Assembly (NCBI RefSeq): GCF_031326345.1
Contig: NZ_CP133671.1
Coordinates: 2,480,001 to 2,544,000, forward strand
Reading direction: 5' to 3'
Source of the DNA: Aureispira sp. CCB-E
GTDB lineage: Bacteria > Bacteroidota > Bacteroidia > Chitinophagales > Saprospiraceae
DNA: 64,000 nucleotides
A program made the translations under genes and the position numbers. This document shows, piece after piece, positions 7,977 through 34,488 of the stretch. The notes under the pieces were generated by a model that was not told where the DNA came from, searched no databases, and worked only from the letters and a program-made list of their open reading frames with translations. Position 1 is the stretch's first letter, and the number at the start of each line of letters is the position of its first letter.

Positions 7977-10900
7977 ATGTTAAAAATTTTATACTTACAC
8001 GCAAAACAGTCATACCCTATGTTACGTTGTAAACAATTACTTGTCCCGTTGCTTAACGTCTTTCTGATGTTAGGCATTTTCTTGTTAGGGACACAAGAAG
8101 CAAATGCTACCCACGCAAAAGGGGTAGATGTTTCCTATGTTTGTCTGGGTCCTACGGCTAGTGGGATGCAATATGCACTGACATTAAACATCTACCGGGA
8201 TTGTAATGGTATCGGTTTGCCTAATAATCAGACCATAAGTTATACTGGTACTTCCATTAGTACGGGAAACCCGTGTACAGGATCGGTGAGCTCCTCTCGT
8301 CAGAGTATAGAGGATATTACCCCAAACTGTAGCACGCAACAATCTTCTTGTGGTGGTGGTAATGGATCCTTTGGTGTAGAAAAACACACCTATACGGCAA
8401 CCATTACAATACCTTTTGATTGTTCTAATATCGTATTTTCATGGCGACTGTGTTGTCGAAACAATTCCATTACTACTTTGGTAGGTAGCCCAGCAATGTA
8501 TGCTGAGACACGGAATATTTTTAACAATGCGGCAACGTGTAATAACTCGCCTATTTTCTTAAATCCTCCAGCGGCTTATACTTGTATTGGACAACAAGTA
8601 TTTTATAACCACGGAGCAATTGATTACGATGGCGATTCATTAAACTACTCTTTAGTGCCTTGTTTGGAAAATGCAAATGACCCAGTTCCATATCAACCTG
8701 GTTTTTCTGGAACGGCTCCTTTTGGTCCTTCTGACCCAGTTACGATTGATGCACAGACAGGAGCGATTGCTTTTACACCAACGTCTTTACACGTAGGTGT
8801 TTTGTGCGTTTTGGTTGAAGAGTATCGAAATGGTATCTTGATTGGATCGACAATGCGAGACATTCAATTTGAAGTATTGAACTGTAATAATGCCAATCCA
8901 ATCTTATCAGGAGTGAATAACTCTGGTCAAGGAAGTGTTAACTTTACTACGTCAACTTGTTTTGGTTCTCAATTGTGCTTTGATATTGTCGGGTCAGATC
9001 CTCCAAATCCAGGAGATGTTTTATCTATGTCTTATGACCAATCAATACCTAATAGTACGTTTACTGTTTCTGGTCCAGGAGTTCCTTCTGGAAATCAGAT
9101 TACAGGTACATTCTGTTGGACGCCAACAGTATTTGATATCGGGACACATACATTTACAGTAACCATACAAGATGATGCTTGTCCTTTGGTCGGCTCCAAC
9201 ACATTTACATATACGATAAATGTAATCTCAAATCCTAACGACCCTGTAGATGCTGGTCCAGATGCAAGCATTTGTTTGGGCGATTGTACACCTTTATCGG
9301 CTACGACAACTTCTCCTAATGGAGTTAGCTACTCTTGGTCACCTACAATAGGATTATCCGACCCTAATATTCCAAATCCTGTAGCTTGTCCTCCATCTAC
9401 AACAACGTACTCTGTTGTTTTAACATATAATGATGGTTGTACATCAACAGATCAAGTAACGGTTACGGTAGAGGATGATCCGCCATTGGCTGTAGCACCT
9501 AACAATATCAATGCTTGTGGAGGTGCTCCTTTAGTATTGACAGCAACAACGGATGCTCCCTCTATGAACTTTACGTTTACAGAGTTGCCACCTTTAGGAA
9601 CGGCAACAGTACCCAATACGGTAACTGGTCCAACAGCGACGGCACCAGTTACAATACCCAATGCACCTGGTACATATCAATGGAATGTTGAGGTAGCTAA
9701 TCCTTTTACAGGATGTAGCTCTTCTGAGATTATTACCATAACAGTTGGGGATTCTGTAGCGGAGCCAGCTTGTCGAAATATTTATGTTTCTACATCTGGT
9801 AGCTCATCTGCGTCTGGTTCTCAATTTGATCCAGTAAATATTCAAGAAGCTTTGAGACGTGCCGCTTGTAATAATTCTGTTATCAAACTAGCAACAGGTA
9901 CCTATAATATAGATACTGCTTTAAATATAACTAGTAACCTAACAGTTGAAGGTGGTTTTATTGAAAATCAAGCTTGGTTGAAAACGTCAGAAGTTGGAGC
10001 GACGACTATTAATAGAACAAGGAACAATGCTGGAGGTGTTCTAAATGCAGATCGACATCTAACAGCTGTAGAAGTCTTTGGCTCTAGTTACTTCCGCTTA
10101 CAAGATTTAACAATTACAACAGATGATGCTGTTGTTCCAGGAACCTCTACCTATGGTATCTTTATGAACAATGCATCTAATTATAATATTACACGTGTTA
10201 ATATAGAACCAGGAAATGCGACCAATGGTACGAATGGAACAACAGGTTGTTCTGGAACCGATGGCCAACCTGGTACGAATGGACAAGATGGTCTACCCAA
10301 TGGTCAAAGTGATAATATCCAAGGAGGAAATGGTGGTTTTGGAGGAAATAGTTGTGGATCGTTTGCCGTGATCTTTGGTGGTGGCGGTGGTCGTAATGCC
10401 GATCTTGGAAATGGACTTGGTGTTGGAGCAGATGGAGCAAGTGCTTCTGCTGGTGTTGTCGATGGTGGCGCCGGTGGTGGTGGTGGACGAGGTGGTAATG
10501 CCGATGATGGTGCTGCTGGTGGTTCATCTGGACGTGGAGGAACTCCATTAAGCCCACCTGCTGGTTGTTCTGCAACAGGATCTGGTCTAGGTTCTGCTGC
10601 TTCTGGAGGACTAGGAGGAGGTAGAAATACCTTAGGAGATGGTCTCGCCTTTAATAATGGTACACCGAATGTTGGTCAACCTGGTACTCCTGGTATTGCT
10701 GGAGTTGTGGGTTGTGCTGGTGCAGATGGTGCTCCTGGTTTGCAAGTTGCTTGTCGTTATACTGTAGGTGCTCAAGGTGCTACTGGTATGTCTGGATCTG
10801 GTGGATCTGGCGGTGGCGGCGGCGGCGGCGGTGGCGGCCAAGGTGGTCCTTGTGGATGTGTGAATGGTACTGGTGCCGCTGGTGGCGGTGGCGGTGGCGG

Positions 10901-13900
10901 TGGCGCCGGAGGTCTAGGCGGAACTGGTGGTTTCGGTGGTGGTGGCTCTTTTGGAGTCTATATGTGTTCAAATGGAGCTAATGGATTTATAGAGCATTGT
11001 CATATTTCTGCAGGTAATCCTGGTGCTGGTGGTATCGGAGGTGCTGGTGGTGTCGGAGGAAACGGTGGTGCTGGTGGAAATGGAGGAAATGGAACTGCAG
11101 CAGAAGTTCAGAATGGTGGTGCTGGTGGCGCTGGTGGTGCCGGTGGTTCTGGTGGTGTTGGTGGAAATGGTCAACCTGGTATTGCTGTTAACATCTTTTG
11201 GGATGGTGGCGGAACCGTTCCAGTAGCACAAGATTCAACTTATGAATTATACAACCAACAAATCATTTATGTAGAAAATACAAACTGTACCAATGCAGAG
11301 GTTATGTTTTGGGATTCTTCGAGAGTTGCTTCTCATCCAAATACAACTGCATTGCCTCAAATTATTCCTGTTGGTTTGCCAAATACAACGGTAACAAACT
11401 GGACATTTGATGCTGTTGGTTCAAATACTGTTCCTCCAACAGGAACATTCAATGCAGATACAACACGATATAATAATGTAGGTCGTTATAGCATTATTCA
11501 CAATACTTGTGTCGGTTGTCCTGCTTCAGGTGGTGCTGCTGGAAACGCCCTAGAAGAATATCGAGGTTTCCACAATATTGCCTTTGACAAAGCTTTCAAA
11601 CCAAACATTATCACTAGTGCCAATGTTATAGGTGTTGATACCTTCCAATTATGTGTGGGAGATTTTGCGACTTTTGGAAGCTCAGTTTTTGGAGATACAA
11701 CCAGATGGGAATTTAATGGAGCAATTCCAAATCCTGGAAATGTTCAAAATATACCTAGTACACAATTTAATGTATCTGGATTCTTTATGATTGAGTTATT
11801 CCTAATTACAGATTGTTGTGGGGATACACCGACAGATACAGCTTATTTATATGTAGACCCAGTACCAAATGTAACTGGCAATGGAAATCAAACAGTTTGT
11901 TTGGGAGATTCTGCATTATTAACAATAGGAGGTCTATCAGCAACGGATACTGTAATATGGTCTCCAACATCTAATCTTGCATTTATATCAGAGGACAGTG
12001 TACTTGTTAGCCCAACAGCTACAACAACGTATACGGCATCTGTTTATTCTTTGGTTACAACTGGTGGACAAACAAGGTTGTCTTGTCCTGTATCATTGAG
12101 TTATACAGTTAATGTTAACCCATTACCAGACCCTGCAATGTCTTCTACAGATGTTGTTTGTAACAACGATGGTACTGCAACTGCAACACCTGCAGCAGGT
12201 ACCTATGACTTTGTTTGGTCAAATGGATTGACAGAAAATGGTGTTGCTACAAGTACAATTGTAAATCTAGCAGCAGGCACTTATTGTGTTACTGTAACAA
12301 ATACTGTAACTGGTTGTGTAGATACAGGTTGTGTGTTCGTAGCACCAGCAGTGGCTGTTCCAGGAGTATTTGCAACAAATATTACCCCTGTTACTTGTGC
12401 TGGCGCCAATGATGGTACTGTAACTATTGGAACATTAAATGGTACCGCTCCTTATACTTATGTATGGGATACAATAGTTCCAGGTATCGTTAGTCCAACA
12501 TCAAGCAACTATACAGTGACTGGATTGCCGCCAAGAGATTATACTGTTACTGCAACAGATAACAATGGCTGTCAATCTCAAATAACGTTTAATATACCTA
12601 CACCAGATCCTTTGACGATTGCGATCATTGATACGACACATCCTGTTTGTCAAAATGATACAGGAAGAATTGAGATAGAAGGTCAAGGTGGTACTGGATT
12701 AATTACTTACATCTGGTCTAATGGAACAACAACATCAACAGGGATTCTGTCAGGAATTGATACAGGGTTTTATTGTGTAACTGTTGTTGATGATAATAAC
12801 TGTACAAATACTCTTTGTATCAACTTAGATGCACAACAAGTTTTAACAACAGCAATTGATATTGCTTCTCCAATTCTTTGTAACGGAGGAACAGCTTGTA
12901 TAGGTGTGAATGCTACAGGAGGATCAGGTTCATATACGTATAGCTGGTCTGGAGGCGGTATTACACCGTTCACTACAGGATCAGATACAGCATGTAATTT
13001 CCCTGCGGATGCAGGTGCTTATACTGTTTTAGTTACAGATAATACTTTCGGTTGTACTACAACTGCTGATATATTTGTAACGGAACCACCATTACTAACT
13101 TCTACCATTTCTTCGCAAAGTAATGTAAGTTGTAATGGCGACTCAACAGGTATTGCTACTGTAAGTGGTACAGGAGGAACAACTCCTTATACTTTCTTAT
13201 GGGATGCTAATGCCAATAACCAAACTACTGCAGCAGCAACTAACCTACCTGCTGGAACTTATTGTGTAACAATTACAGATTCTTTAGGTTGTACCGCAGT
13301 TTCTTGTGCTACGATTACACAACCAGCAACAGGAGTAGATGTAAATGCTTCTGTTACAACTCCAATTTCATGTTTTGGAGGAGCAAATGGAGAAGCAACA
13401 GCAGTAGGTGCTAATGGCACACCTGGGACTACAGGATATACTTATACTTGGTCAAATGGTCAAACGGGAGCTGTGTTAATAGGTGGATCTGTTGCAGGCA
13501 GCCCTTATACTGTTGTGGTGAGAGATTCTCTAGGTTGTGAGGATAGCACCACAATAAGCTTTACACAGCCATCTGCCGTAACAGCAAGTATAGCAAGTAC
13601 AATTAGTGTTACTTGTTTTGGAGATTCAACTGGACAAGCTACAGCAGCAGGTACAGGAGGAACAGGACCTTATACGTTCCAATGGGGATTAAATACAGGT
13701 AACCAAACAGGACCAACCGCAACTGGTTTGAGTACTATTGGAGGTCCATACTGTGTTATTGTGACAGATGCGAATGGTTGTACAGATTCAATTTGTGTAA
13801 CAATTCCTCAACCAGGAAGTGCATTGACTTCAAGTGCAGGTGTTATTGATAACGCTAATTGTGCGGGCGCTTCTGATGGAATTGCTTTTGCAACAGGAGC

Positions 13901-16900
13901 AGGTGGAACAGGAGCTATCTCTTATATTTGGGATGGTGGTACTGCTACGGGAGCAACAACAGATACAATTACAGGATTGGCAGCAGGTGTTTATTGTGTA
14001 ACCGTAAGCGATGCCAATAACTGTGAAAATACACATTGTGTAACTATTACAGAACCAAGTGCAGTAACAGCAACAATTTCTGGTTTTACAGATGCTTTAT
14101 GTTTTGGCGATTCAACTGGAACGGCAACAGTGGTTGGTTCTGGTGGTAATGCAGGGACAGCATATACTTATCTTTGGTCAACAACTCCTGCACAAACAAC
14201 GGCAACAGCAACTAATTTAGCTGCAGGAACTTATACCGTGACTGTTTCAGATGATAGTTTATGTGTTGGTACGGCTTCGGTAACAATATCTCAACCAAGT
14301 CAAGTAAATGTTATTGCTTCAGTAATTAGCAACTTTAATGGTTCTCAAGTAAGCTGTCCAACTGCTAGTGATGGTAGTGTTACAGCTAATGCTTCAGGTG
14401 GAACTGGAGGATATACCTTTGGTTGGAGTCCTGCAGGAGCTGGTCAAACATTAAATGGTGTTGATACAGGAATGTACATTGTAACGGCAACCGATGCCAA
14501 TGGTTGTACTGCATTAGATACAACGAATGTTGTTCCGCCAGCGCCAGTAGTTGTTACAATTACTTCTACAACAAATGTAAATTGTTTTGGTACTGCAACA
14601 GGTAGTGCTACAGCGAATGGAACAGGTGGTTCTGGAGGTCCTTATACTTATGTTTGGACGGATGGTTCTACAGGTGCAACAAATTCAAATCTATCTGCAG
14701 GTGTACACTGTGTTACAGTAGAAGATGTGAATAATTGTCCAGTAGTAACTTGTGTAACAATTACACAACCTTCTGCTGCTGTCTCTGGAGCGATCACAAT
14801 TGATACAACTATTAGTTGTAATAATGGAAGTGATGGCGATATTCATGTAGTAGCAACAGGTGGTACGCCATTTACAGTAAATCAACCGAACGGAACAGGT
14901 TATACTTATGTTTGGACAAATGGTTCTACTGATACTTCAGCTATGAACTTAGCTGTTGGCCAACACTGTGTTACGATTACAGATTCATTAGGTTGTTCTT
15001 TTGTAAGTTGTGTAACATTAACAGAGCCAACAGCCGTAACAGCAACAATCAGTGCAACACAAGATATTGATTGTACAGGTGACTCAACAGGAACCGCAAC
15101 AGTTGTAGGTTCTGGTGGAACTCCTAATGTTCCAGCACCAGCCTATACTTTTGAATGGTCTGATGGTCAAGTAACTCAAACAGCAACAGGCTTAGCAGCA
15201 AATACGTCTTATTCTGTGACGGTATCTGATGCGAATGGTTGTCCAGCAGTAACTAATATAACTTTAAGTCAACCTGCTAATGCAGTAGATGTAGGAACAG
15301 CTGTTATCTCTGACTACAATGGTCAAGATATTAGTTGTGTTGGTGCATCTGATGGATCTGCAGTAGCCACAGGTTCTGGCGGAAGTGGATCATATACTTT
15401 TGATTGGGGATTGACAACTAACGACACCTTATCTAATGTAGGAGCAGGAACATATATGGTTACAATCACCGATTCACTAGGTTGTACAGATACGGCTTCT
15501 GTTACTTTAGCTAATCCTCCTGCGCTTACAGCAACAATTACTGCTCAAAGTGATGTGTTGTGTAAAGGAGATTCTACAGGTAGTGCAACCGTAACTGCTG
15601 GTGGTGGAACAGGAGTATATAGCTACTTATGGTCTGATGGACGTACTGGAGCAACGAACAACAATTTGCCAAATGGTACGCATACTGTTACTGTAACAGA
15701 TGCTAATAATTGTACGGTTTCTACTTCAGTAACAATCAATGAACCTGCTTTAGCTTTAACATTTGCTACGATTGTAATTGATTCTACCGTGAGTTGTAAT
15801 GGAGGAAGTGATGGAGGAATCACAGCATTTGGAGCAGGTGGAACAGGAGCCTACAGCTTTGCTTGGGATAATGGAGCATCAACAGCTTCTATCACAGGTA
15901 TTGATGAAGGAACATACTGTGTGACCGTAACGGATGCGAATGGTTGTACAGCAGATACCTGTGTAATAATGACGGAACCAACACCAGTAGTAGCGACAAT
16001 AAGTGGCTCTACGAATGTATCTTGTTTTGGAGACTCAACAGGAACAGCAACGGTAACAGGTTCAGGTGGAACAGAATTGGGTGCTTATGACTTCTTGTGG
16101 TCTGATGGTCAAACAACAGCAACGGCAACAGGTTTAGCAGCCAACACACTATATCAAGTAACCGTTACAGACGATAATGGCTGTACAGGAGTTACTAATA
16201 TAACACTAACTCAACCATTAAGTGCTGTCAATGTAGGAGCAAGTATTATCTCTGACTACAATGGTCAAGATGTAAGTTGTGCTGGTGCAACGGATGGTGC
16301 AGCTGCAGCGGTAGGAGCAGGTGGAACAGGAGCTTACATGTTTGATTGGGGATCAACAACAAATGATACCTTATCTAATATTGGAGCAGGAACTTATACT
16401 GTGACAATCACGGATGCGAATGGTTGTACAGATACAGCTTCTGTTACTTTAGCTAATCCTCCTGTACTTACAGCAACAATTACTGCTCAAAGTAATGTAT
16501 TGTGTTTTGGAGATTCTACAGGTAGTGCAACTGTAACTGCTGGTGGTGGAACAGGAGCATATAGCTATTTATGGTCTGATGGACGTACTGGGGCAACGAA
16601 CAACAATTTGCCAAATGGTACGCATACAGTTACTGTAACAGATGCTAATAGTTGTACAGCAACAGCATCTGTAACAATCAATCAACCAGCTGCTGCTTTA
16701 ACATTTGCTTCTGTTGTAATTGATTCTACCGTGAGTTGTAATGGAGGAAGTGATGGAGGAATCACAGCATTTGGAGCAGGTGGAACAGGAGCCTACAGCT
16801 TTGCTTGGGATAACGGAGCATCAACAGCTTCTATCACAGGTATTGATGAAGGAACATACTGTGTGACTGTAACGGATGCGAATGGTTGTACAGCAGATAC

Positions 16901-19900
16901 CTGTGTAATAATGACGGAACCAACACCAGTAGTAGCGACAATAAGTGGCTCTACGAATGTATCTTGTTTTGGAGACTCAACAGGAACAGCAACGGTAACA
17001 GGTTCTGGTGGAACAGAATTGGGTGCTTATGACTTCTTGTGGTCTGATGGTCAAACAACAGCAACGGCAACAGGTTTAGCAGCCAATACACTATATCAAG
17101 TAACCGTTACAGACGATAATGGCTGTACAGGAGTTACTAGTATTCTATTAACTCAACCAACAGCAACATTAACGGCAGGAGCAACTGTTAACACTAATTA
17201 TAATGGACAAGATGTAAGTTGTAATGGTGCAACAGATGGTGAAATTAGTGTTGTAGGTTCTGGCGGTACTCCATTTACAGGATCAAATCCTTATACATAT
17301 AATTGGAATACGACAGCTACTAATGATACATTAACTGTAGGAGCAGGTACTTATACTGTAACTGTAACAGATTCATTAGGCTGTACAGCAGTAGCAACAG
17401 TAACTGTTAACGAGCCAGCCTTATTGACGGCAGCAATAGCAAATGGTCAAACTAATGTAGCATGTTTTGGAGACTCAACAGGTCAGGCTACTGTAAATGC
17501 TAATGGAGGTACAGTAGTTGGAAACTACAGTTTTGTATGGGACAATGGTGTTACTACTGCATTAAATGGAAATTTACCTGCAGGAGTTCAGTGTGTAACA
17601 GTAACCGATGCAAACGGATGTTTGGCAACAACTTGTGCTACAATTACACAACCATCTAGCGCAATATTAGTAGCCAATGCTACCGTTAATTCAAATGTAT
17701 CTTGTAATGGTGGTAATGATGGCGAGGCAACTGTAACGGCATCAGGAGGAACACCAGGTGTAGCAGGATATAACTTTAACTGGGCTGGTTTAGCTCAAAC
17801 AACAGGAAATATTACAGGTTTATCAGCAGGAACTTATTGTGTGACAATCACAGATTCTTTGGGTTGTGCTATCGATACTTGTATAACTATAACTCAACCA
17901 ACTCCAGTAACAGCAACAATTACTAATATTAATAATGTAAGCTGTTTTGGTGATTCAACAGGATCAGCAACTGTAACTGGTGGAGGTGGAACAGTATTAG
18001 GGGCTTATACTTTCTTATGGGATGCAAATGCTGGAAATCAAACAACAGCAACGGCAACAGGTTTAGCTGCTAATACTTCGTACTGTGTAACTGTAACAGA
18101 TGATAACGGTTGTACAGCGACAACTTGTGTAACATTAACACAACCCAATCTTTTAACAGTAAGCGGTTCAGAAGTTACTCCAGTAGCTTGTGCTGGTGAG
18201 AGCAATGGTTCTATACAAGCAACAGCAACAGGAGGATCTGGTACACTTAACTACACTTGGGGAGCGAATACAGGCGGTGCAACAACCGATACTGTAACAG
18301 GTTTATCAGCAGGTGTATACTGTGTAACTGTAACTGATTCTTTGGGTTGTACAGCAACAACTTGTGTAACATTGACAGAACCTTCTGCAATAACTGTGAC
18401 GGCAACAGCTGTTGTAGACGTAGTTTGTAGAGGAGATTCTACAGGAGAAATTACTGTAGCAGCAACAGGTGGAGCTGGCGGATATACTTTCTTGTGGGAT
18501 GCTGCTGCTGGTAACAGAACAACAACTACTGTAGCAGGCTTAGGAGCGGGAACATATTGTGTTATCGTAACCGATGCTAGTGGATGTAGAGATTCACTTT
18601 GTGTAACATTAAGTCAACCTGCAACAGCAGTAGATGTAACAGCGAACGTAATTTCAAATTATAATGGTTCACAAATAGAATGCTTTGGTGATTCTTCAGG
18701 AGTAGCAGTGGCTATGGCAACAGGTGGTACGGCAGCTGTAGATTATCAATATGCATGGACAATTACTTCTCAAACAAGTGATACAGCAGTAGGATTGCCA
18801 GATGGTACATTCTGTGTAACTGTAACCGATGACTTTGGTTGTACAGATACTGCTTGTGTAACAATCGCAGAGCCTACACCAGTTGTAGCAACAATAACTG
18901 CAACAACAAATGTAGCTTGTTTAGGAGAATGTACAGGTACTGCAACCGTAGCTGGTTCAGGAGGAACAGGAAGTGCTTATACTTACTTGTGGGATGCTAA
19001 TGCAGGAAATCAAACGACTGCAACAGCTACAAACTTATGTACAGGTTTATATGGAGTAACTATTTCTGATGTGAATGGATGTGTAGGAGTTGCTACAGTA
19101 TCTATTTCTGAACCTAATACAGCGGTTCAAGCAACGGCGATTGTTAGTTCAAACTATAATGGTCAGGACGTAAGTTGTAATAATGCCTTTGATGGAGAAG
19201 CAACTGCGTCAGCAGTAGGAGGAACTCCTGGTTCTGGCTATACTTTCCAATGGAATGGTGCTGCTTCAGGTCAAACGACGGCAGTTGCAACAGGTTTAGG
19301 GGCTAATATTTTATACTGTGTAACTGTAACAGATGCTAATGGATGTATTGATTCTGCTTGTGTCACATTAACAGAGCCAACAGCGATTATACCAACTGTA
19401 GATACGACTATTAATGTAGCATGTTTTGGTGATTCTACTGGTGCTGCAACTGTTTCAGCAACAGGTGGTGTTGCTCCTTACTCTTACTTATGGGATGCCG
19501 CTGCTGGCAATCAAACAACAGCAACAGCTGTAGGTTTGGCTGCAAATTCTTATACGGTAACCGTAACAGATGCCAATGGATGTCAAGGTGCTGCTGTTGT
19601 AGTAGTGGGACAACCTTCTGGTCCAATAGATGTAGATGCAGTTATTACTTCTAGTTATGGAGGTGGAACACCTCTACAATGTTTTGGTGATTCTTCTGGT
19701 TCTGCTTTAGCAACTATTTCAGGAGGAACAGCACCATATACCCAAATCTGGGGTCATGGTCCAACAACATTAGCTGTAAATAACTTATCTGACGGAACTT
19801 ACTGTATCACAGTAACTGATTCTCTAGGATGTATGGATACAGCCTGCGTAACGTTATCACAACCTACTCAAGTAACCGTTAGCTTAGTATCTACTACTGA

Positions 19901-22900
19901 TGCTTCTTGTAATGGTGGATGCGATGGTACTGCTACAGTAGTAGCATCAGGAGGAATTCCTGGATATACTTATCAATGGGATGCCGCTGCTGGAAGTCAA
20001 ACAACAGCAACTGCAACAGGTTTATGTATTGGTGTTTACGAAGTTAGCGCAACAGATGCTAATGGATGTATTGCTACATTTAATGTAACTATTTCTGAAC
20101 CTGCAACTTCAGTTGTAGCTAGTGCAATTGTAACATCTAACTACAACGGTGCTCAAGTATCTTGTGTTGGATCTAGCGATGGACAAGCTACTGCAACTGC
20201 TTCAGGAGGAACAACTGCTGTTGCTGGCGTTTATACTTATGTATGGACAAACGGTACTATTAATAGTACATTAGATAGTGTACCTGCTGGCGTTTACTGT
20301 GTAACTGTTTCTGATGATAATGGTTGTAGTGATATTGCTTGTGTGACAATTACAAATCCAAGTCAAGTTACCGCCACAATTACAACTACAAATGATGTAG
20401 CTTGTTTAGGTGATAGTACAGGAAGTGCAACTGTAACGGCAACAGGTGGTACAGGAGGCTATACTTATTTGTGGGAAGCTGCCGCTGGAAGTCAAACAAC
20501 AGCAACAGCTACAAATTTGGCTGCTGGATCTTATATTGTAACAGTGACAGATGCTAATGGATGTACTTCTCAAGCAATTGCAATCATTAATCAACCATCC
20601 GCTACATTAGTGGCTGGGGCAACAATAACAAATAACGTAGCGTGCTTTGGAGATTCTTCTGGAGCTGCTCAATTGAACATAATTGGTGGTACAGCACCTT
20701 ACAGCATCGCATGGAATCATGGCCCAACGACTGCAACTATAACAGGTTTACCAGATGGTACATACTGTGCAATCGTAACCGATTCTTTAGGATGTATGGA
20801 TACTGCTTGTGTCACTTTACTAGAACCTACACCAGTAACGGCTAGTGTAACAACAACACCTGCTGATTGTAGAGGTGCCGCAACAGGAACAGCTACTGTA
20901 ACAGCTAATGGAGGTACTCCTGGTACAAATGGATACACTTATTTGTGGGATGCGAATGCAGGCAACCAAACAACAGCAACAGCTACTGGTTTATCTGCGG
21001 CATTAAGTCCTTATACTGTAACGGTAACAGATGGTAATGGATGTACAACAACTGCTTCAGCAATTGTTACAGAACCAGCGACCTCAGTTAATACTGCTTT
21101 GGTTGTACTATCTAACTACAATGGTGCTCAAGTAAGCTGTAACGGTTCTTCTGATGCCATTGTTGGTGTAACTTTATCAGGTGGAACGACTCCTTACACT
21201 TACTTGTGGTCAAATGGAAGTACTAATGATACGTTGACAGGAGTAGGAGCAGGACAACATTGTGTAACGGTAACGGATGCCAATGGATGTTCAGATATCG
21301 CTTGTATCACAGTAACAGAGCCTTCTGTAATTACGGCAACGATTTCTGCTACCAATAATGTAGCTTGTTTTGGTGAATGTACAGGAACAGCTACTGTGAG
21401 TGGAGCAGGAGGAACTGAAAATGGTACTTACAATGTATTGTGGGATGCAAATGCAGGAAACCAAACAACTGCAACTGCAATTAACTTGTGTGCAGGTTCT
21501 TACAATGTAACTATAACAGATGATAATGGATGTACAGCAGTAACAACTGTAATTATTACAGAGCCATCAAATGGATTGGCTGCAACAATTACTGCAACGT
21601 CTAATTATAACGGTCAACAAATATCTTGTGCAGGTGCATCAGATGGTGAGTTGACAGCAACAGCAACAGGAGGAAGCGGAGCAGGTACTTATTCTTTTGC
21701 TTGGGTTTCTAATCCTTCTGTTACAAATGTAGCAACAGGCTTGTCTGCTGCTGGTAACCCTCATTGTGTAATTGTAACAGATGCTAATGGATGTGTTGAT
21801 ACAGCATGTTTCAACTTAGTTGATCCAACTCCATTAACAGCATCTAGTACACAAACGAATGTAAGTTGTAACGGTGGTTCTAATGGTACTGCAACTGTAG
21901 TTCCAACAGGCGGTACTGGTACCTATACTTATACATGGGATGCCAATGCTGCTAATCAAACAACTGCAACTGCAACAGGCTTAGCAGCAGGTCCTTACTG
22001 TGTAACGGTAACGGATGCTAATGGTTGTCAAGTAACAACTTGTGTCAACATTACAGAGCCTACTTTATTAACAACAACAGCAACAATTGCTTCTAACTAC
22101 AATGGTCAAAATGTAAGCTGTAATGGTGCTAATGATGGGATTGTATTTGCAACACCATCAGGAGGAACAATGCCTTATACTTATGCTTGGTCTACATTAG
22201 GAGCAGGAACTGGTGATACTATCACAAATGCTAGTGCTGGACAAGTAATTGTTATTGTAACGGATTCTTTAGGTTGTACGGCAACAGATACAGTCGTATT
22301 AACAGAACCAACTCCAGTTACAGCATCAATTACAGCATCTACCAATGCAACATGTAATGGTCAATGCGATGGTTCTGCAACCGTTTCGGGAGCAGGTGGA
22401 ACAGTAACAACTGGATATACCTTCTTGTGGAGCGCGACTGCAGGTAGTCAAACAACAGCAACAGCGACGAACTTGTGTGCTGGAACTCATACAGTAACGG
22501 TTACCGATAATAATGGATGTACGAATGTAACCTCTGTTACTATCACAGAGCCTTTATTGGGAGTTTCTGCTACTGCAACTGTAACATCTAACTTTAATGG
22601 TCAAGATGTAAGTTGTAACGGTGCTTGTGATGGAACTGCAACAGCAACAGGAGCAGGTGGAACAGTAACAACTGGATACACGTACTTGTGGGATGCAAAT
22701 GCAGGCAACCAAACAACAGATACAGCATTCAACTTATGTGCTGGTACTTATACTGTAACGATTAGTGATAACGGTGGATGTTCTAACACAGCTACAGTGA
22801 CAATCACAGAACCTTCTACAGTCGTAGCAACTATCTCTTCTACAGTAAGTGTAAGTTGCGGTGGTGGTTCTGATGGACAAGCTACAGTAACTGGTAGTGG

Positions 22901-25900
22901 AGGAACTACTTCTATCGCTGGATATACGTACTTGTGGGATGCAAATGCAGGCAACCAAACAACAGCGACAGCTACGAACTTGCCTGGTGGTGTTCCAATT
23001 AGTGTTACTGTAACAGATAACAATGGCTGTACTGGTGTGACTACTGTGACAATTGCTCAACCAGCAAATGTATTATTAGTAAACCCAGTTGTTACATCGA
23101 ATTACAATGGTCAAGATATTTCTTGTAATGCAGCGTGTGATGGAGCAGCACAAGTTCAAGTAACTGGAGGTATCCCAGGATACAACATTACTTGGTCTAC
23201 AGGTGCAACAGTAGATTCTATTGCAAACTTATGTGCAGGAACTTATGCTGTAACAGTGACAGATAACGGTGGATGTACCGTTGTAGATTCTGTAGTAGTG
23301 ACAGATCCTGCTGTATTGACAGCTGGAATTGTTACTCAAAACAATGTTTCTTGTACTGGTGGTGCAGATGCTTGTGTTGAGGTTGGAGCATTAGGAGGAA
23401 CACCTGGATATACTTACGCTATCCAACCTGGTGTCACTCAAGCAAACAACGGATTGTTCTGTAACTTACCTGTGGGTACTTATACTGTAACAGTTACTGA
23501 CTTGAACTTCTGTGCAACTACTGTTGGCGTAACAATTACAGAGCCAGCGACATTACCAACAACAACAGTTAGTGTAACATCAAATTACAATGGACAAGAT
23601 GTAAGTTGCTTTGGAGCTTGTGATGGTATTTTGACGGCAACACCTAGTGGAGGAACAGCGCCTTACACGTACAGTTGGTCAGGAACAACACAAACAACAC
23701 AGACTGTAACAGGAATGTGTGCAGGTACTTACTCTGTATTGATTACAGATTCATTAGGATGTACAGCATCTGCTGTAGTAACGATCAACAACCCTGCTCA
23801 ATTGACAGCATCGTTGACAAATACTGTAGATGCATTATGCTTTGGAGATTCTACAGGTTCAGCAACCTTTACAGTAACAGGAGGAACAGCTCCTTATACT
23901 TATAGTGCAGGAGGAAACTCTGTGACGACTGTAAATACATCAGCAACAGTTAATAATTTGGTAGCAGGACCTTATACTGCATCTATCACAGATGCTAATG
24001 GATGTACGGTTCCAGTTTCCTTTATTATTTCTTCTCCACCACAATTGATTGCAACAGCAACCGTAACTTCTTCTTACCAAAATGGATCGGTAATTAGTTG
24101 TGCAGGTGCTTGTGATGGAGCGGCTACTGCTGTAGGTGTAGGTGGTAACCCAGGAAGCACTTACAACTTCTTATGGAGTTCAAGTGCAGGCGGTCAAACA
24201 ACCTTTACAGCAACTGGTTTGTGTGCAGGAACACATACTGTAAGCATCACTGATCAAAATGGATGTGTGGCTGTAGATACAGTAGTTCTTGTAGAACCAC
24301 AACCATTGACAGCAACAAGCACGCAAGTAAATGTGAACTGTTTTGGAGATTCTACAGGATCTATCCAAATGACAGCAAACGGAGGTACGCCAGTATATAC
24401 TTATACATTAGGTGCAGAAACGAACTTTACAGGTCTATTTACAGACTTGACAGCGGGAACATACTGCATCACAGTTAGAGATACGAATGGTTGTAGTATC
24501 ATAGAATGTGTTACTATAACTCAAAATACACAGCTGCAAACAGTAACCTTAGTTACTTCAAACTACAATGGTGCACACACAAGCTGCTTTAGCAGTGCAG
24601 ATGGTGCGGCTAGAGTAAATGTAACAGGAGGTCAAGCAGCTTACAGTTACCAGTGGTCAACAACACCAGTTCAAACAACACAAGTAGCAACTGGCTTGAT
24701 GGGAGGTACTTACTATGTTACCGTAACCGATACTTTAGGTTGTGTTGCGATAGATAGTGTTGTGGTAACCCCAGCAGATAGCTTGATTCTAAATGTTGTC
24801 GATACAGTACATGTTGCTTGTTTCGGTCAACCTACAGGATCATTTACAGTAGCTGCTAGCGGAGGAGTTGGACCATACTTGTACTCATTTGATGGAGGGG
24901 CTACCTTTACCAATACAGTACAATACACGAATTTGCCAGCGAATATGATTGGAGCTGGATACTGTGTGATCGTTAGAGATGCGAATGGATGTGAAACAAC
25001 AACTTGTATCCGTATCAATGAGCCTACTCAATTGCAAGGCTTGGCAGATAGCTTGATTATGGTAAGTTGCTTTGGTGGAGCAGACGGAATTATTGCTGTA
25101 ACAGGAGTGGGCGGAACAGCACCATACTTATACAGCTTTAATGGTGGTTCTTTCGATACGACTAGAATCTTTACAGGATTAGCGGCACAAAACTACACCA
25201 TCGATATTCAAGATGCTAATGGATGTATCTTCTCGATGACCAACCAAATTATCACACAACCAGCAGAGTTGATCTTAACCGTAGATACACTACGTAATCC
25301 AACTTGTACGGGACAATGTGATGGTGTGATTGAGTTGAGTGCAGTAGATGGCACTCCTGGATACGAGTTCTCTATTGATGGTGTCAACTATCAATTGTCA
25401 GGTATTTTCTCTGGCTTGTGTGCGGGAGGTTATACGGTATACGTAAGAGATGCTCAAGGATGTATTACTAGTCGAACAGTAATTTTAGTACAACCTACAC
25501 CAGTAGTTGCCAATGCAGCTGTCACTTCATTCTACCCAGCAGGATCAAACATTCAATTTAATGTTTCTTGCTTTGGTGAGTGTGATGGTTCTGCAGTAGC
25601 AACACCAACTGGAGGTACACCAAGTACAGCAGGTACTTATACTTACCAGTGGTCTTTAGGTGGTGCAACAACAGATACAATTACAGGTCTGTGTGCTAAT
25701 ACAGTATACACAGTAACTGTAACCGATATTAATGGATGTACAGCAGTTGATTCTGTTGTTTTGACAGAGCCAACAGAATTGGCAGGAGTATTTACTCAAG
25801 TAACACCTGAAACTTGTGCAGGTAATGACGATGGAGTTATCGTTGTAACAGCAACTTCAGGAACAGGCGCAGGATCATATACTTATGATATCGGTGCAGG

Positions 25901-28900
25901 ACCAGTAACCAATGGTGTCTTCACCAATCTTGCAGGTTCTTTGACAGGTACTTCTTACTCTGTGACAATTACAGATGCAAATGGATGTACAGCAGTTCTA
26001 GACACATTAATCTATGAGCCAGCATCCGTTACTATTTTGCCAACAAGTGGTGTAACTAGCGACTACAATGGATTTGATATCTCTTGCTTTGGTGCAGCAG
26101 ATGGAGAGTTAACAGTAGTTCACACAGGAGGAACAACTCCAATTAGCTACTTGTGGGATGTTAATACAGGTGCTCAAACAACAGCAACTGCAACAGGATT
26201 GAGAGCTGGAACTTATTGTGTGACAGTAACAGATGCCAATGGCTGTGCCGTTGATACTTGCTTGACATTGACACAACCAACACCATTAACAATGACTGCA
26301 ACAACTGATTCTGCAGGATGTACTGGTGCTAATGGAGGTAGCGTTTCTGCTATTCCTTCTGGAGGAACGGGAGCATATACTTATGCAATAGATAGCACAG
26401 GATCTGGAATTCCTAGCGTGTTTGGAACAGACAGTACATGGTCTAACTTGACAGCTGGTACTTATACAATTTACGTACAAGATACCAACGGTTGTGGACC
26501 AGTTCAACAAACAGTAACTGTTGGTCAAGGTGCGCCAATCGTACCAAATGTAAATGTACTAACACCATATAATGGGCAACAAATCAGTTGTAATGGTGCT
26601 ACTGATGCAACGGCAACTGTCACGGCTACTGGTGGTACTGTTGGAGGTATCTTCTTTACTTATCAATGGGATGCTGCAGCAGGTAACCAAACAACTAGTA
26701 CGGTTACAGGATTAGGAGCAGGTACTTACTTTGTAACGATTACAGATACAGTTTCTAACTGTACTGAAGTTGTCTCAGTAGTAATAACAGAGCCAACAGC
26801 TGTAACGCTAGCAACAGATACCGTAATTAATGTTGGATGTAATGGAACAGCAACGGGTGCTGTTCAAGTAACAGCAACAGGAGGAACTCCTGGTTACACA
26901 TACAGTACAAGCTTTGTGGCAGCAGGAACGAATACAACAGGTATCTTTACGAACTTGCCTGCTGGAACGTATGATGTTTATGCAATCGATCAAAATGGAT
27001 GTGGGGATACACTATCTGTAACTATTATAGATGCAAACCCAATTACAATTGACTTAGATTCTGTTAACATTTCTTGTTCTGACTTAGTTGATGGACAGGT
27101 TGTAGCAACAGTAACAGGTGGAACACCATTTACAACAGGATTTGGATACACCGTATCTTGGACTGGTCCTTCTGGATCAATTACCGCAGTAGATACTTTA
27201 TTCAATGTACCTGCAGGAACATACACTATGACAGTCTTGGATGCGGCAGGATGTACGCAAACCGCTAGTACTACAGTATTGGCACCAGCGCCAATTGTGG
27301 TAACGGCAACAAGCGTAACGCCAGCAACATGTGGAGATTCTACAGGAGTAATTACATTGACAGCTACTGGAGGTCCTTCTGTACTGGACGGTGTATTGGG
27401 AGCATACGAGTTCTCTTTAGACGGAGGTACTACTTTCACTAGAGGAACGAACCCAATTACTTTCAGTAACTTGGCAAGTGGTAGTTACCAAATTGTTGTA
27501 AGAGACACTAATAATACAGCTTGTATTGATGTAGAAACAGTTGATTTGGGTAGCAATAGCGATATCTCTGGATTCACTACAACTACCAATGAAACTTGTG
27601 ACGGCTATGCAGATGGTACTGCAACAGCATTTGCTACAAGTTCAGCAGGAGGATTTACTTACCAATGGTATTCTAGTAATGTACCTGGAATCATCTTTAA
27701 CACAAACCAAACAGCTACAAACTTAGCAGGTAACGTGTCAGATGTAGACGGAGACGGAATCTTAGATACTTTGTTCACTTACTATGTAATTGTAACCGAT
27801 GCTAGTCCTTGTGTGGATACATTCCCTGCATACATCATTGGACCTGATTCATTGACAGTGAATGCTAGCTTAGTACAAGATGTAAGCTGCTTTGGTGGCA
27901 ATGATGGAGCGGCAACGGCAACAGTTGTGGGTAGAGATACTAGTGTAGTAACCTTCTTATGGAATAATGGTGCTACAACAAACTTTGCTAATGATTTGAG
28001 CACAATGGGCTTAGATTCTATGCCATACATTGTAACTATTACAGATACTGCAGGATGTATGAGTTCAGATACCGTATTTGTATCTCAACCATCACAACCA
28101 GTAACGGGAGCTTATTCAGGTAGTACAGTAACTTGTGCAGATAGTAGCAATGGAGTAATAACAATTGATTCAGTTGTTGGTGGAACAGCACCATATTTGT
28201 ACTCTTTTGCAGCAATTGGACCTTATGGTTCTGATGCAATCTTATCACAAGGTTTACCAGCAGGTATGTACACCGTTTATACACAGGATGCCAATGGATG
28301 TATTGATTCTACGGAGAATATTATTATCCGTGATACAATAGACTATATTGTAACTGCGTTTATGGATCAAACCATCAACATGGGAGAAACTGTAACGCTT
28401 TATGGAACAGTTAACAATTCAGGAATTGATAGTTCATTAGTAACATGGTCTCAATTAGATCCGAATACAGGAATTATGAGTATTGTCTCTACAGGAGCTA
28501 GCTCTCTTGAAGGATTTACTCCTGATACCTTCTTTACAGATATGCAATTTGTTTTATCATTGAATAATGGATGTGGAGACAGCTCAATTGTAACCATTGA
28601 AGTGAATCAACAACAAACAGTATTCGTTCCAAATGCCTTCTCACCAAACGGTGACGGTACAAACGATATCTTTACGGTGTATGGTTCAAGCGATGTGAAG
28701 AGAGTTAAATCATTCATGGTATTTGATAGATGGGGTGAATTAGTTCATATCGGAGAGGACTTCGCACCAAATAGTATTGATCCTAACCACGGATGGGATG
28801 GTACATTTAGAGGAAAAGCAATGAATCCAGCAGTATTTGTTTACTTTGCTGAGGTTGAGCTAACCAACGGTGAGACAGTAATCCGTAAAGGTGACGTAAC

Positions 28901-28948: not shown

Positions 28949-29081
28949 TTATTCTATTAAAAAATCAAGTTTATATAAAGTAAGGCTCAGTCTTGAATTG
29001 AGCAGTAAGTAAATCAAAATAAATTGCAGGTTGATACCAAACCTGCCTTCCCAAAAGGAGAAGAATCAAAATCTAAAGATT

Positions 29082-30152
29082 ATGAAATTAGGGAAATTTT
29101 TTACATTTATTATTATAGCACTTGTTGCTAATCTTAACTCTGCGCAAGCGCAAGACATCCACTTCTCACAGTTTTACGTGTCAAACCTGACCTTAAATCC
29201 TGCTACGACAGGGGTGATGAGTTGCCAAATGCGTGTGTCTGCTATTTATAGAAATCAGTGGGCAAGTGTGATGGGTGACAATGCTTTTAATACTTTTGGT
29301 CTTGGGGTGGAAGGAAAATTTGAAGCAGGAAACAAAGATTTTGTAGGGGCTGGATTGTCCGTATGGGTCGATAGAGCGGGGGCATCTGCATTTACTGCGG
29401 TACAGGCTAGCTTATCTGGTTCTTATTTGAAAAAGATTGGCGGAAGACGTTCAAATGAGCACTTCTTAGTAGCTGGAGGTCAAGTAGGCTTTGTACAACG
29501 CAGTATTCGTATTGATCAATTGCGTTGGGGAACTAATTGGGATGGAACTAGTTTTAATGGTTCTTTGCCAGACAATGAGAGTATTTTTAATAGTACTTTA
29601 GCTGTGGCAGATGTCAGTGCAGGTCTTTTATGGTTTAGTGCTTTAGATAAAGATAATAAGAGCAATGTTTATGCAGGAATTGGATTCCAACATTTGACAA
29701 AAGCAAATTTGTCATTTATGAATCCAGGTTCAGAACCTCTTTTCACAAGATTCACTATTCATGGTGGGGCAGAAGCTCGTATTGCTCGCCGTTTGGCAAT
29801 TGTACCTAACTTTGCTGTAATGGTTCAAGGTCCTTCTACACAAATGAATATTGGTACAGGAGTGAAATTTGATTTCAGTAAAAAATCGCAATCTAGCCAA
29901 GCATTTACAATAGGGGCATATGTTCGTGGTGCCAATCAAGCACAGGTAAACACAGATCAAGGAACTTTTGGTGTAGATGCGATTGTTGCTTTGTTGCGTT
30001 TGCGTTTTGGAGGCTCTCATATTGGGTTGAGTTATGATATTAATGTATCTAAATTGGCAGCTGCAACAAATGGAAATGGTGCATTTGAATTTTCTTATGT
30101 TTACACACTTTGTAATAGCAGAGGTCGTCGTTTGGGATGTCCTACTTTCTAA
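29082..30152 (+). CDS. PorP/SprF family T9SS outer-membrane protein
   Basis: The 356-residue protein from ATG 29082 has a signal peptide MKLGKFFTFIIIALVANLNSA. It then carries the family hallmark QDIHFSQFYVSNLTLNPATTGV and a beta-barrel with IYRNQWASV, ending in an aromatic residue. An upstream TTG at 29031 would put 17 residues before the signal peptide, so ATG is preferred. In Flavobacterium, SprF is encoded just downstream of sprB and is needed for SprB to reach the surface; related proteins are thought to anchor type B cargo with the CHU_C domain. This gene follows the giant SprB-repeat gene by 168 nt and is its likely partner. Confidence 0.93.
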   Translation: MKLGKFFTFIIIALVANLNSAQAQDIHFSQFYVSNLTLNPATTGVMSCQMRVSAIYRNQWASVMGDNAFNTFGLGVEGKFEAGNKDFVGAGLSVWVDRAGASAFTAVQASLSGSYLKKIGGRRSNEHFLVAGGQVGFVQRSIRIDQLRWGTNWDGTSFNGSLPDNESIFNSTLAVADVSAGLLWFSALDKDNKSNVYAGIGFQHLTKANLSFMNPGSEPLFTRFTIHGGAEARIARRLAIVPNFAVMVQGPSTQMNIGTGVKFDFSKKSQSSQAFTIGAYVRGANQAQVNTDQGTFGVDAIVALLRLRFGGSHIGLSYDINVSKLAAATNGNGAFEFSYVYTLCNSRGRRLGCPTF

Positions 30153-31116: not shown

Positions 31117-34100
31117 TTAAGGATTGACGCATCGTTCTTGTATCCAGTCAATTAAGGCAGCATAACGCTTATCTAAACGCATTAGGTGCTCGTTTCCAAT
31201 TAAAATTAAATGCCTGCGGGCTCTTGTGAGGGCAACATTTAGCTTTCGATCTACAACCTCGTCATCAGATAAGGAGATGACGCTTTCTAGTTGGTAGGCA
31301 TCATTGAGACAAAGTGAGATGATAATAATTTCTCGAGCACCGCCTTGATAACGTTCGACCGTATCAATGGTACAATTTTCATAATCTTGCCCATATTGAG
31401 TTAAAACACTTCTTATCTGGGCAATTTGCGCTCTAAAAGGTGTAATGACTCCAACATCTTCAGGCTTGAGTGTTTGATTATTGGCTTTGTAAATAGCATT
31501 AAAACTGTTAATAATCTTGCCAACCATTTGGGCTTCATCCAAATTCGTTTTAGGGTTTCTAAAGCGGTTAATGGTGCTGTTAAAAAATAACATTCTGTTG
31601 CGAGTTAAGAGTTGTTCTAGTTCGCTTGAATTAGGGGGCAACTGATAGTTTAAGGTCTCCTTTTGCCAAACACTAATAGGAAGTTCTTCAGGTAGTAATT
31701 TAAGTTCATTATTATAAAAATATTTGCTTGGAAAACGGCAAATATCCTCGTGCATACGTCCTTGGTGGTGCAGTTGATCAAATGCCCAAGTCCACTTATT
31801 TTTTTCAGCTTGATTATACAATCTTTCAAATAATGAGTTGCGCCTATTGTATAGACCAATTTCGTTCAAAGCTTTATTGTCTACTGCCGAACGCGTTTTT
31901 TCTTGCAAGACAACCGCAGGCAATTGCTTGTGATCACCAATTAGCACAAAACGTTTGAAATAGGGAAGCATACCAATCAACATTGGTTCTAGAATTTGAG
32001 AGGCCTCATCAATAATTGCAGTATCAAATTGCTTTAACTGTAGCAAGCTTGCTTTGCTTGCAATAGAGGCTACGGTAGAGACAAAAATTCGATGAGAAAC
32101 AATTTTTTGCACTAAATCTTTTCGTTTACTAATATCTTTCGTTTGCTCTGAAAATAATCGACCATGAAAATGTGGATGTGTCGAGTATTTGGAGCCAATA
32201 CGGAGGTAGTCCTCCTCTGCAAAGTCATGAATAGCCTCACAAATTTCATCAACAGCTCGATTGGTATACGCTAATAATAGAATTTGTTCTTGGGTATTTG
32301 TCAATAAATAACGCACCATTTCCGCCAGCATAAACTTCGTTTTCCCTGTGCCAGGAGGTCCAACTAGCAAAAAATAATCTTTGGCTGCAATGGCTTTGTG
32401 TAAAACCTTTCTTTGCTCTACACTCAACTGTGGGTTGCCGAGCCGCAATGGCTTGACAGCTACTTCTTGAGGTGGTGTAAGGGTTAATAGCAAATTTCTA
32501 TTATAAGACTTCGTTTTTAGAAAACTGTACAAAGCACGGTATTGAACTTTGAAACTGCTGTCCATCATATCATGCTCGATATGCCAAAACAAATCTTCCT
32601 CAAACAAACTGTGGTTAAATTGACGATAACGCAACTGAACACAGACCGTATCTTCGTCGATATGGGTGATAGACCCTTTAAAAATTTGATCGTTGAGAAC
32701 ATTGTGCCCCGCTTGACGATATGGATAAAATACAATAATATCTCCTTGTCTAAAATTGGCGAGCGGGTTGGTTTGCTTGGTGCGTTGAAAATGAATGAGC
32801 GGTTGTTCGTCACCAGATTTATCTTCTTGAATTTTGAGAAATCCTAGCACTTCAAATGCCTCATTTTTTTCTTCTAAATCACTCAACCATAAAGCTGCTA
32901 AACCATTGCGGTTTTCTTTGCCTGCTTCTCCTGTTTTTGCCAATTGGTGCTCTCTTGCTGTAAAGCTGATAAAATGTAAAAAGTACAATCGTTCAAGGGG
33001 AGAGGCGGTATGAATTGTTTGAGCAAAATTTTGCAAGTCTCTTGCTACAAATCCTTTGGCTCTAGGCAAACGCTCTGGTGCCAACTGGTCTAAGATGGTG
33101 AACACATCTTCCAAGTCTTCTAAATCTAAATCGGCTAATTTTTTTTCAATTGAAATAATATCATTTCTAACTTTTATAGCTTCGTATTGTTGTGATTTGA
33201 ATGGTGGTGCAGGCTTTAGGTGATCGTGGTCTATACCTGAGTATAAAATATAGGTAGGAGAGTTGAGCTTTTTGCCAAAAGTAGAGCGAACGAGCAAATC
33301 ATATAAATTAGTTTGAGTATAGTGATTGTGGCTTAGTCCCAAGTGATTAGGGGCAAAGGGTTTCCCACTTTTTAACTCTATAATCGCTGTTTTATCAGAT
33401 TTAGGGGTAGAATCTTTGTACCAAACATCCAAACGACCTTGGATGCCATATTTTTCAGAATAAAAAGAAGGCTCTAAATAACAGTCTTCAGGAGTAATGT
33501 TATTTTCTTTTAATTTAACCTTTATCGTAGTTTTTAGATTGGTAAAATGTTTTTGACTCTTTCTATAAATTTGCAAAATTTCAGCATCTGTAAACGTGGC
33601 AAATGCTAATGGATTGAGCGCAAAAGCTTTTGGAAAAGTATCTGTAAAGGTAGCATTCGGATCTGTCATTAACTCATCCAAAAAGAAGTTGGCAACATTT
33701 CCTAACATCAACGGGATGGAGTAGGAAAACGGGAGAAATTTTTTGAGTAAATACAAATCGGCTGCGGCTCCAAAGTTCTGAAAGCACTCTGATATACTAC
33801 TGACATCCACCATATAATCTGGCTCGATGACAAAAGCATGCGGAATATAAATGCCTTTTGAATTAATAACAACATCAATTAAATTCAATGTAACATGGTT
33901 GTGAAAGTTTTGTTGAATGCTATGAATAGTAGAATTAAAATTCTCATTATGTCCCGTTACATTATATTGTACATGGATGGTCGTATCAGGTTGGGCAAAA
34001 GGCTTGCATATCAGCCATTCTTGTTTGCGGTCGGCATCAACCACCATGACTCGACATTCATCCAATCGCTCTACTTGCTCAATAGGATTGTTGTGTTCGG

Positions 34101-34488
34101 TTCGATCTTCAAAATCATCAACGAGTGCTTTTAGTGTTGGAGTGGCAGACGTTTGGCAAAATGCGGCAATAGCATAAGTAGCCGTTTTTAAACTTGTTAA
34201 ATAATCGTTTTCTGCAAAGTTAGCTTTGTTGGCCAGAACTGCTTTCTTTTTTTTTCGAACTTGATGAATACGCCATTGTAAGGCATTGCTAATTTGATGC
34301 TCATGAGAGGCAAAGGCAATGCGAGATAACATGGTTGTGAAAGGAATATTTTTACTTCTCGTGATGTCCACAAAGAAGGAAGTTAATAAACGATCTAATG
34401 CGGCAATTTTATCATTATAAGAAGTATTTAGTGCATGTATTTTTTCAAATTCTCTAAAAAGTAAGTTAGCTAACTGTGGATTTTTCAT
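31117..34488 (-). CDS. Dna2-like PD-(D/E)XK nuclease fused to SF1 helicase
   Basis: Single protein of 1,123 residues. About residues 340-400 show a RecB/Cas4-type nuclease core: GIQGRLDVW, AIIELKSGKP and a following QTNLYDLL. The C-terminal half is an SF1B helicase of the Dna2/UPF1 group: Walker A GPPGTGKT (near 705), IIDEASQ, LIGDHKQLPAV, VERYQGGAREIIIIS and NVALTRARRHLILIGN. The order nuclease-then-helicase is that of eukaryotic Dna2. No Fe-S cysteine cluster is obvious. Likely roles are DNA end processing, replication-fork repair or defence against foreign DNA; the neighbours do not decide between them. An alternative would be an RNA/DNA helicase with a decayed nuclease, but the key acidic residues and the lysine look intact. 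Confidence 0.85.
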   Translation of the reverse strand: MKNPQLANLLFREFEKIHALNTSYNDKIAALDRLLTSFFVDITRSKNIPFTTMLSRIAFASHEHQISNALQWRIHQVRKKKKAVLANKANFAENDYLTSLKTATYAIAAFCQTSATPTLKALVDDFEDRTEHNNPIEQVERLDECRVMVVDADRKQEWLICKPFAQPDTTIHVQYNVTGHNENFNSTIHSIQQNFHNHVTLNLIDVVINSKGIYIPHAFVIEPDYMVDVSSISECFQNFGAAADLYLLKKFLPFSYSIPLMLGNVANFFLDELMTDPNATFTDTFPKAFALNPLAFATFTDAEILQIYRKSQKHFTNLKTTIKVKLKENNITPEDCYLEPSFYSEKYGIQGRLDVWYKDSTPKSDKTAIIELKSGKPFAPNHLGLSHNHYTQTNLYDLLVRSTFGKKLNSPTYILYSGIDHDHLKPAPPFKSQQYEAIKVRNDIISIEKKLADLDLEDLEDVFTILDQLAPERLPRAKGFVARDLQNFAQTIHTASPLERLYFLHFISFTAREHQLAKTGEAGKENRNGLAALWLSDLEEKNEAFEVLGFLKIQEDKSGDEQPLIHFQRTKQTNPLANFRQGDIIVFYPYRQAGHNVLNDQIFKGSITHIDEDTVCVQLRYRQFNHSLFEEDLFWHIEHDMMDSSFKVQYRALYSFLKTKSYNRNLLLTLTPPQEVAVKPLRLGNPQLSVEQRKVLHKAIAAKDYFLLVGPPGTGKTKFMLAEMVRYLLTNTQEQILLLAYTNRAVDEICEAIHDFAEEDYLRIGSKYSTHPHFHGRLFSEQTKDISKRKDLVQKIVSHRIFVSTVASIASKASLLQLKQFDTAIIDEASQILEPMLIGMLPYFKRFVLIGDHKQLPAVVLQEKTRSAVDNKALNEIGLYNRRNSLFERLYNQAEKNKWTWAFDQLHHQGRMHEDICRFPSKYFYNNELKLLPEELPISVWQKETLNYQLPPNSSELEQLLTRNRMLFFNSTINRFRNPKTNLDEAQMVGKIINSFNAIYKANNQTLKPEDVGVITPFRAQIAQIRSVLTQYGQDYENCTIDTVERYQGGAREIIIISLCLNDAYQLESVISLSDDEVVDRKLNVALTRARRHLILIGNEHLMRLDKRYAALIDWIQERCVNP

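Follow-up and report, generated by a model that had tools for sequence, protein, structure and literature searches.

Covariation of cysteines points to disulfide staples between neighbouring SprB repeats in a giant surface protein of Aureispira sp. CCB-E

SprB of Flavobacterium johnsoniae is a gliding adhesin. It has the same repeats (PF13573), the same T9SS type-B tail and the same kind of neighbour gene, of the SprF family, as the protein described here, and the likeness between the two is one of sequence features. The question that we address is how gliding adhesins that are hundreds of nanometres long can exert traction without unravelling. In Gram-positive pili and adhesins, isopeptide bonds lock Ig-like repeats and thereby make the tandem domains inextensible. 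Those bonds are formed within domains, whereas the bonds proposed in the present work are disulfides between domains; what the two have in common is the placement of covalent bonds on tandem Ig-like domains.

Disulfides between SprF and GldK and between PorG and GldK have been described in the gliding and secretion machinery (PMC12635249). These bonds are force-carrying and belong to the same machinery as the SprB staples that we propose. They are, however, periplasmic and connect different proteins, while the SprB staples would be extracellular and connect repeats of one adhesin.

The best structural match to our model of the repeats is grappling hook protein A (GhpA) of Aureispira sp. CCB-QB1 (PDB: 9flp, 9flw, 9fly). 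Its profile match to the SprB units has an E-value of 1e-45, and its PKD-like domains carry cysteines of the C1 and C5 types found in the SprB units (see below). A PDB sequence search with one segment of the array gave no match, and a structure-library search (viral) with the model returned generic Ig-like and SprB matches only. GhpA and the present protein are encoded by separate genes. The possibility that the array is itself the grappling hook was considered and is ruled out, as the GhpA orthologue of the CCB-E genome is located in another ORF of 5.9 kaa near 6.83 Mb (L187, G000:C1:6823000-6842900), which matches at 99% over the tested part and has PKD-like domains with C1- and C5-type cysteines. 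A literature search, the scope of which did not extend to the GhpA paper (Lien 2024), where the staple may already be noted, returned no description of cysteines or disulfides in SprB repeats, and none of disulfides that link the domains of arrays of this kind.

The locus and its repeat array

The window, i.e. the whole stretch of DNA that was analysed, comprises 64,000 nucleotides. The following features define the locus:

7977-28913, + strand: SprB-repeat surface protein of 6,978 aa (ORF call; PF13573 SprB, PF13585 CHU_C, TIGR04131)
12141-28325, + strand: 66 SprB units (u01-u66), each with the cysteines C1 (in VSC) and C5 (in NGC)
28626-28910, + strand: T9SS type-B C-terminal sorting domain (CHU_C), without cysteine
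29031-30152, + strand: gene of a PorP/SprF-family outer-membrane protein (TIGR03519, PF11751)

The SprB profile PF13573 matches the protein with 399 bits over 1,700 aa in 16 stretches, and the units, each of about 80 aa, span aa 1389-6783. The C-terminus matches CHU_C and TIGR04131, as is characteristic of T9SS type-B substrates, and the SprF-family gene lies 3' of the ORF, in the position of the adjacent carrier in the SprB gliding adhesin system. Judging from the sequence, the PorP/SprF-family protein is likely the carrier and anchor of the repeat protein. N-terminal to the repeats there is a long stretch rich in glycine and alanine (aa 740-1080, nt 10194-11216), and at 31117-34488 on the minus strand the window encodes a large protein that resembles helicases and is related to those of the IGHMBP2 type and of the PLuB system.

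SprB repeats are found in about 29 ORFs of the CCB-E genome. Four of these proteins, of 3.1-4.2 kaa (L009, L013, L016 and L033, near 0.956, 1.807, 2.233 and 7.103 Mb), have identical-score units in common and are therefore probably recent gene copies. The units of the window array and the order of their classes recur, nearly all identical, in Aureispira sp. CCB-QB1. Within the array, u16-u17 and u20-u21 (aa 2595-2747 and 2909-3061) are 97% identical, which marks a recent segmental duplication.

Two optional cysteine pairs

All 66 units of the window were aligned and six cysteine columns, C1 to C6, were tabulated. C1 is present in every unit and C5 is aligned in 65 of the 66, the apparent gap in the remaining one (u63, '..NTACIDV') being an alignment shift. 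The preliminary description, made by eye, of about 66 repeats that each carry the VSC and NGC cysteines is thus borne out for all 66. Its estimate of about 25 units with an additional C4 and C6 becomes exactly 25 on the alignment (class I: u1, 3, 5, 7, 8, 11, 12, 16, 20, 23-28, 30, 32, 34, 36, 38, 40, 41, 51, 53 and 58). For the second pair, C2 and C3, about 12 units had been counted; ten share one register (class II: u29, 33, 39, 43, 44, 46, 48, 50, 55 and 56), and the number 12 is reached if two units with a shifted pair, which we call class II', are included. The features concerned are:

18876-25772, + strand: zone u29-u56, which holds all ten class II units (C2 in the AB loop, C3 before strand F)
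12843-13088, + strand: u04, a class II' unit (TACIGV ... TACNF) with the pair shifted by 3 on both strands
23313-23546, + strand: u47, the second class II' unit (ADACVEV ... LFCNL)
23064-24527, + strand: u46-u51, AlphaFold2 model (pLDDT 91) of seven-strand Ig-like units

The concentration of class II in the middle of the array, at 18.9-25.8 kb, holds as originally described if u04 is not counted. In u04 and u47 each cysteine has moved by three residues, in opposite directions, such that the position sum is unchanged and the register is kept. Neither half pairs nor units combining classes I and II occur among the 66 units of the window, nor among the ca 294 fully aligned units of the CCB-E genome, which agrees with the earlier observation that the members of a pair are jointly present or absent. 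For the window, the chance of zero overlap between the two classes is about 0.0016 (hypergeometric, with duplication ignored).

The pairs were also examined in a larger set of 2,346 SprB units, 1,994 of them of good quality, collected from the CCB-E genome, a phylum sample and 80 named genome contigs. Here, both extra pairs occur together in three units outside Aureispira, all of them without C1, where about 20 such units would be expected within arrays. The claim that no unit carries both pairs therefore stands for the window and for Aureispira, while absolute exclusivity is ruled out; the exclusivity is strong but not absolute. Seven units have C6 only (L104 units 26, 30, 34 and 37; L121 unit 32; L181 units 16 and 24); in two cases the next unit has a cysteine at the start of strand A, and the others have no evident partner. 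These units count against the model proposed below. A further optional pair is seen in L104, L121, L063, L069 and L142, where one unit carries a cysteine at the start of strand A and another early in strand G (e.g. AALVC ... TTVCMV).

Mean-field direct-coupling analysis (mfDCA) was performed on 1,723 adjacent unit pairs, covering about 11,600 column pairs. The strongest intra-unit couplings are those of the optional cysteines, with C2-C3 at rank 1 and C4-C6 at ranks 3 and 4. Both fall on regular ladders between strands. The B-E ladder has a position sum of 71 and includes class II (18-53), the shifted form (21-50) and a strong coupling at 23-48, while the F-G ladder has a position sum of 130 and includes class I (58-72) and a coupling at 56-74. 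In the AlphaFold2 model of u46-u51, both pairs are cross-strand rungs, class I between F and G and class II between B and E. The couplings and the predicted fold thus support the original suggestion that the optional pairs behave as disulfides.

Covariation of the base cysteines between neighbouring units

Since the base cysteines C1 and C5 are invariant in the window, their pairing could not be read from the window alone. The array by itself fits the arrangement suggested in the preliminary description, namely self-contained modules with a C1-C5 disulfide inside each unit and one of two optional pairs added. The larger set gives a different result. Among the 1,994 good-quality units, joint loss of C1 and C5 from one unit is seen once and loss of only one of them 94 times (odds ratio 0.86, p=1), i.e. 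the two are lost independently, and their coupling lies at background (mfDCA ranks 298-491). In the AlphaFold2 model, the AB loop holds C1 and the FG loop holds C5, which places the two at opposite ends of the domain. We consequently regard an intra-unit base bond as very improbable.

We now turn our attention to neighbouring units. In the adjacency test, with 1,723 adjacent pairs of quality-filtered units from about 145 loci, C1 of unit n and C5 of unit n+1 are both present in 1691 pairs and both absent in 14, and only 18 pairs are discordant, 4 with C1 only and 14 with C5 only. The association has an odds ratio of 423 (p=5e-24), and the 14 joint losses are spread over 8 loci. In the mfDCA this pair of columns is at rank 8 with a z of 13.9, and at rank 5 after removal of Aureispira. 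When the units are instead paired as n and n+2, or at random, the z drops to 2.2 and 1.9, respectively, so that the covariation is confined to the offset of +1.

All 18 discordant pairs have a local reason. In 11 of the 14 'C5 only' pairs, an extra cysteine, located at the same interface, stands at the beginning of strand A in the unit bearing C5; in the other three, the residue at C1 is unreadable (X). All four 'C1 only' pairs have a second cysteine 3-4 residues from C1. The gain of a cysteine at the start of strand A in unit n+1 where C1 of unit n is missing is seen in L135, L129, L066, L177, L103 and L089. This cysteine is apparently a replacement partner for C5 of unit n+1.

The couplings 9-73, 12-75 and 15-77 indicate that strands A and G are parallel and run side by side. 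C1 is thereby placed close to where the chain leaves its own domain at the C-terminal side, ten residues further along strand G than C5. Taken together, C1 of each SprB unit appears to bond C5 of the next unit and not its own C5. Another option considered was a bond between C5 of unit n and C1 of unit n+1 across the linker, prompted by units in which these are the only two cysteines left. It was rejected, the coupling having a z of 0.1.

The ends of the arrays were treated separately, and the features involved in the window are:

11874-12140, + strand: PKD-like domain before u01, with a C1-type cysteine at aa 1308 (TVCLGD)
28134-28136, + strand: C1 of u66, aa 6720
28344-28631, + strand: cap domain after u66, with a C5-type cysteine at aa 6866 (LNNGC) and none at the C1 position (INMGETVTL)

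Arrays often start without C5 in the first unit and end without C1 in the last. A cysteine at the expected upstream place is found for 0 of 12 first units that lack C5 and for 78 of 97 that have it (p=5e-8); the remaining 19 first units with C5, which count against the rule, have no cysteine in the fixed window upstream. The matching test for last units gives p=1e-4. When 30 C-terminal regions are aligned, the C5-type cysteine of the cap proves nearly invariant, as does C1 of the last repeat, and the cap domains of several other proteins likewise have C5 and lack C1. In a few proteins (L072), the last unit, with C1, runs straight into a sorting domain that has a single cysteine. By these sequence statistics, the array ends follow the same rule as the interior. 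For the present protein we propose that aa 1308 of the PKD-like domain is the partner of C5 of u01, and that aa 6720 pairs with aa 6866 of the cap domain, which sits just before strand G.

An offset of one unit could also result if C1 and C5 of neighbouring units were bonded between the chains of a multi-chain bundle, because parallel chains would give the same covariation; a heptamer is reported for GhpA (PMC13319060), the closest relative with a solved structure. Against this, the couplings 15(n)-65(n+1), 14(n)-63(n+1) and 78(n)-63(n+1), weak as they are (z 2-3), surround the peptide linker, and upon loss of C1 in unit n it is often unit n+1 that acquires a cysteine where its own strand A begins. 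There is, moreover, no evidence of SprB filaments as bundles. Bonding between chains is in our judgement unlikely.

It is important to point out that the array has grown through duplications, as the 97% likeness of u16 to u20 and of u17 to u21 shows, and one could therefore think of unbonded thiols that bind a metal or a ligand and co-occur by shared ancestry of the units. In a tree of the 66 window units built without the cysteine columns, class I requires at least 19 changes and class II at least 9, the two members of a pair always changing together. The tree has few well-supported branches, which leaves room for the ancestry explanation and makes these counts soft; sign tests on the supported branches gave no significance, with too few pairs. 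The couplings, on the other hand, survive both reweighting and the removal of Aureispira. Shared ancestry cannot yield an offset of exactly one unit, and it is also at odds with the replacement partners that arise when one cysteine is lost. This explanation is scarcely credible to us.

A proposed stapled chain with optional rungs

The reading that we prefer, and hold with high confidence, is that the Ig-like domains of SprB arrays are stapled by inter-domain disulfides between C1 of unit n and C5 of unit n+1, with capped ends, covalent rails and optional rungs. The covariation establishes, at the level of the sequences, the C1(n)-C5(n+1) pairing and the rule for the ends; that the cysteines are oxidised to disulfides, that the bonds are formed along a single chain and that the staples have a mechanical role is what we infer from it.

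In this model, each staple would join the far end of domain n, where the AB loop carries C1, to the near end of domain n+1, where the FG loop carries C5, and such staples would repeat along the whole array. The first C5 would be met by the C1-type cysteine of the preceding PKD-like domain, and the last C1 by the C5-type cysteine of a capping domain without a C1 of its own. In 82% of 1,637 cases, C5 of one unit and C1 of the next are separated by a segment of 25-26 residues, which would comprise strand G, the linker and strand A. Because of this short distance, the staples would create two interlaced covalent rails, G-A-S-S-G-A, that skip strands B-F.

At about 3.5 Å per residue, the covalent path would measure near 90 Å for two domains. 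Ig-like domains are generally 35-40 Å long, and the path would thus have little slack. A stretched array would then extend only little before the covalent path becomes taut, instead of unravelling. The class I rung would tie the load-bearing strand G to F and so fix it to the domain body, while the class II rung would tie B to E and fix the turn beside the C1 loop. Usually there would be at most one optional rung per unit, and if one rung is usually enough, this could explain the rarity of units with both. The three mechanically different modules originally suggested are in this way recast as a single stapled chain in which either sheet may carry an optional rung.

As to the formation of disulfides, it counts against the model that the families DsbB, VKOR and Thioredoxin_4 were not found in the CCB-E genome. 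The only DSBA-family protein found there has an apparent signal peptide and a CGWC motif (L218, 1399-2124).

We are inclined, with moderate confidence, to extend the model to arrays of SprB and related Ig-like repeats across gliding Bacteroidota. These would be interlocked disulfide ladders, in which each domain is tied to both neighbours and which, with two rails, matched caps and tuning rungs, would act as near-inextensible, force-transmitting cables. If this is true, staples between all neighbouring repeats would account for the way in which such long adhesins bear traction and do not unravel: the covalent path per two domains would be about 25 residues, as compared to about 160 without staples. 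The rule, C1 of unit n with C5 of unit n+1 and caps at the ends, is readable from the sequence and would aid structure prediction and disulfide assignment. It would also help crystallographers to select fragments, given that one unit cut out alone would have its cysteines exposed and without partners.
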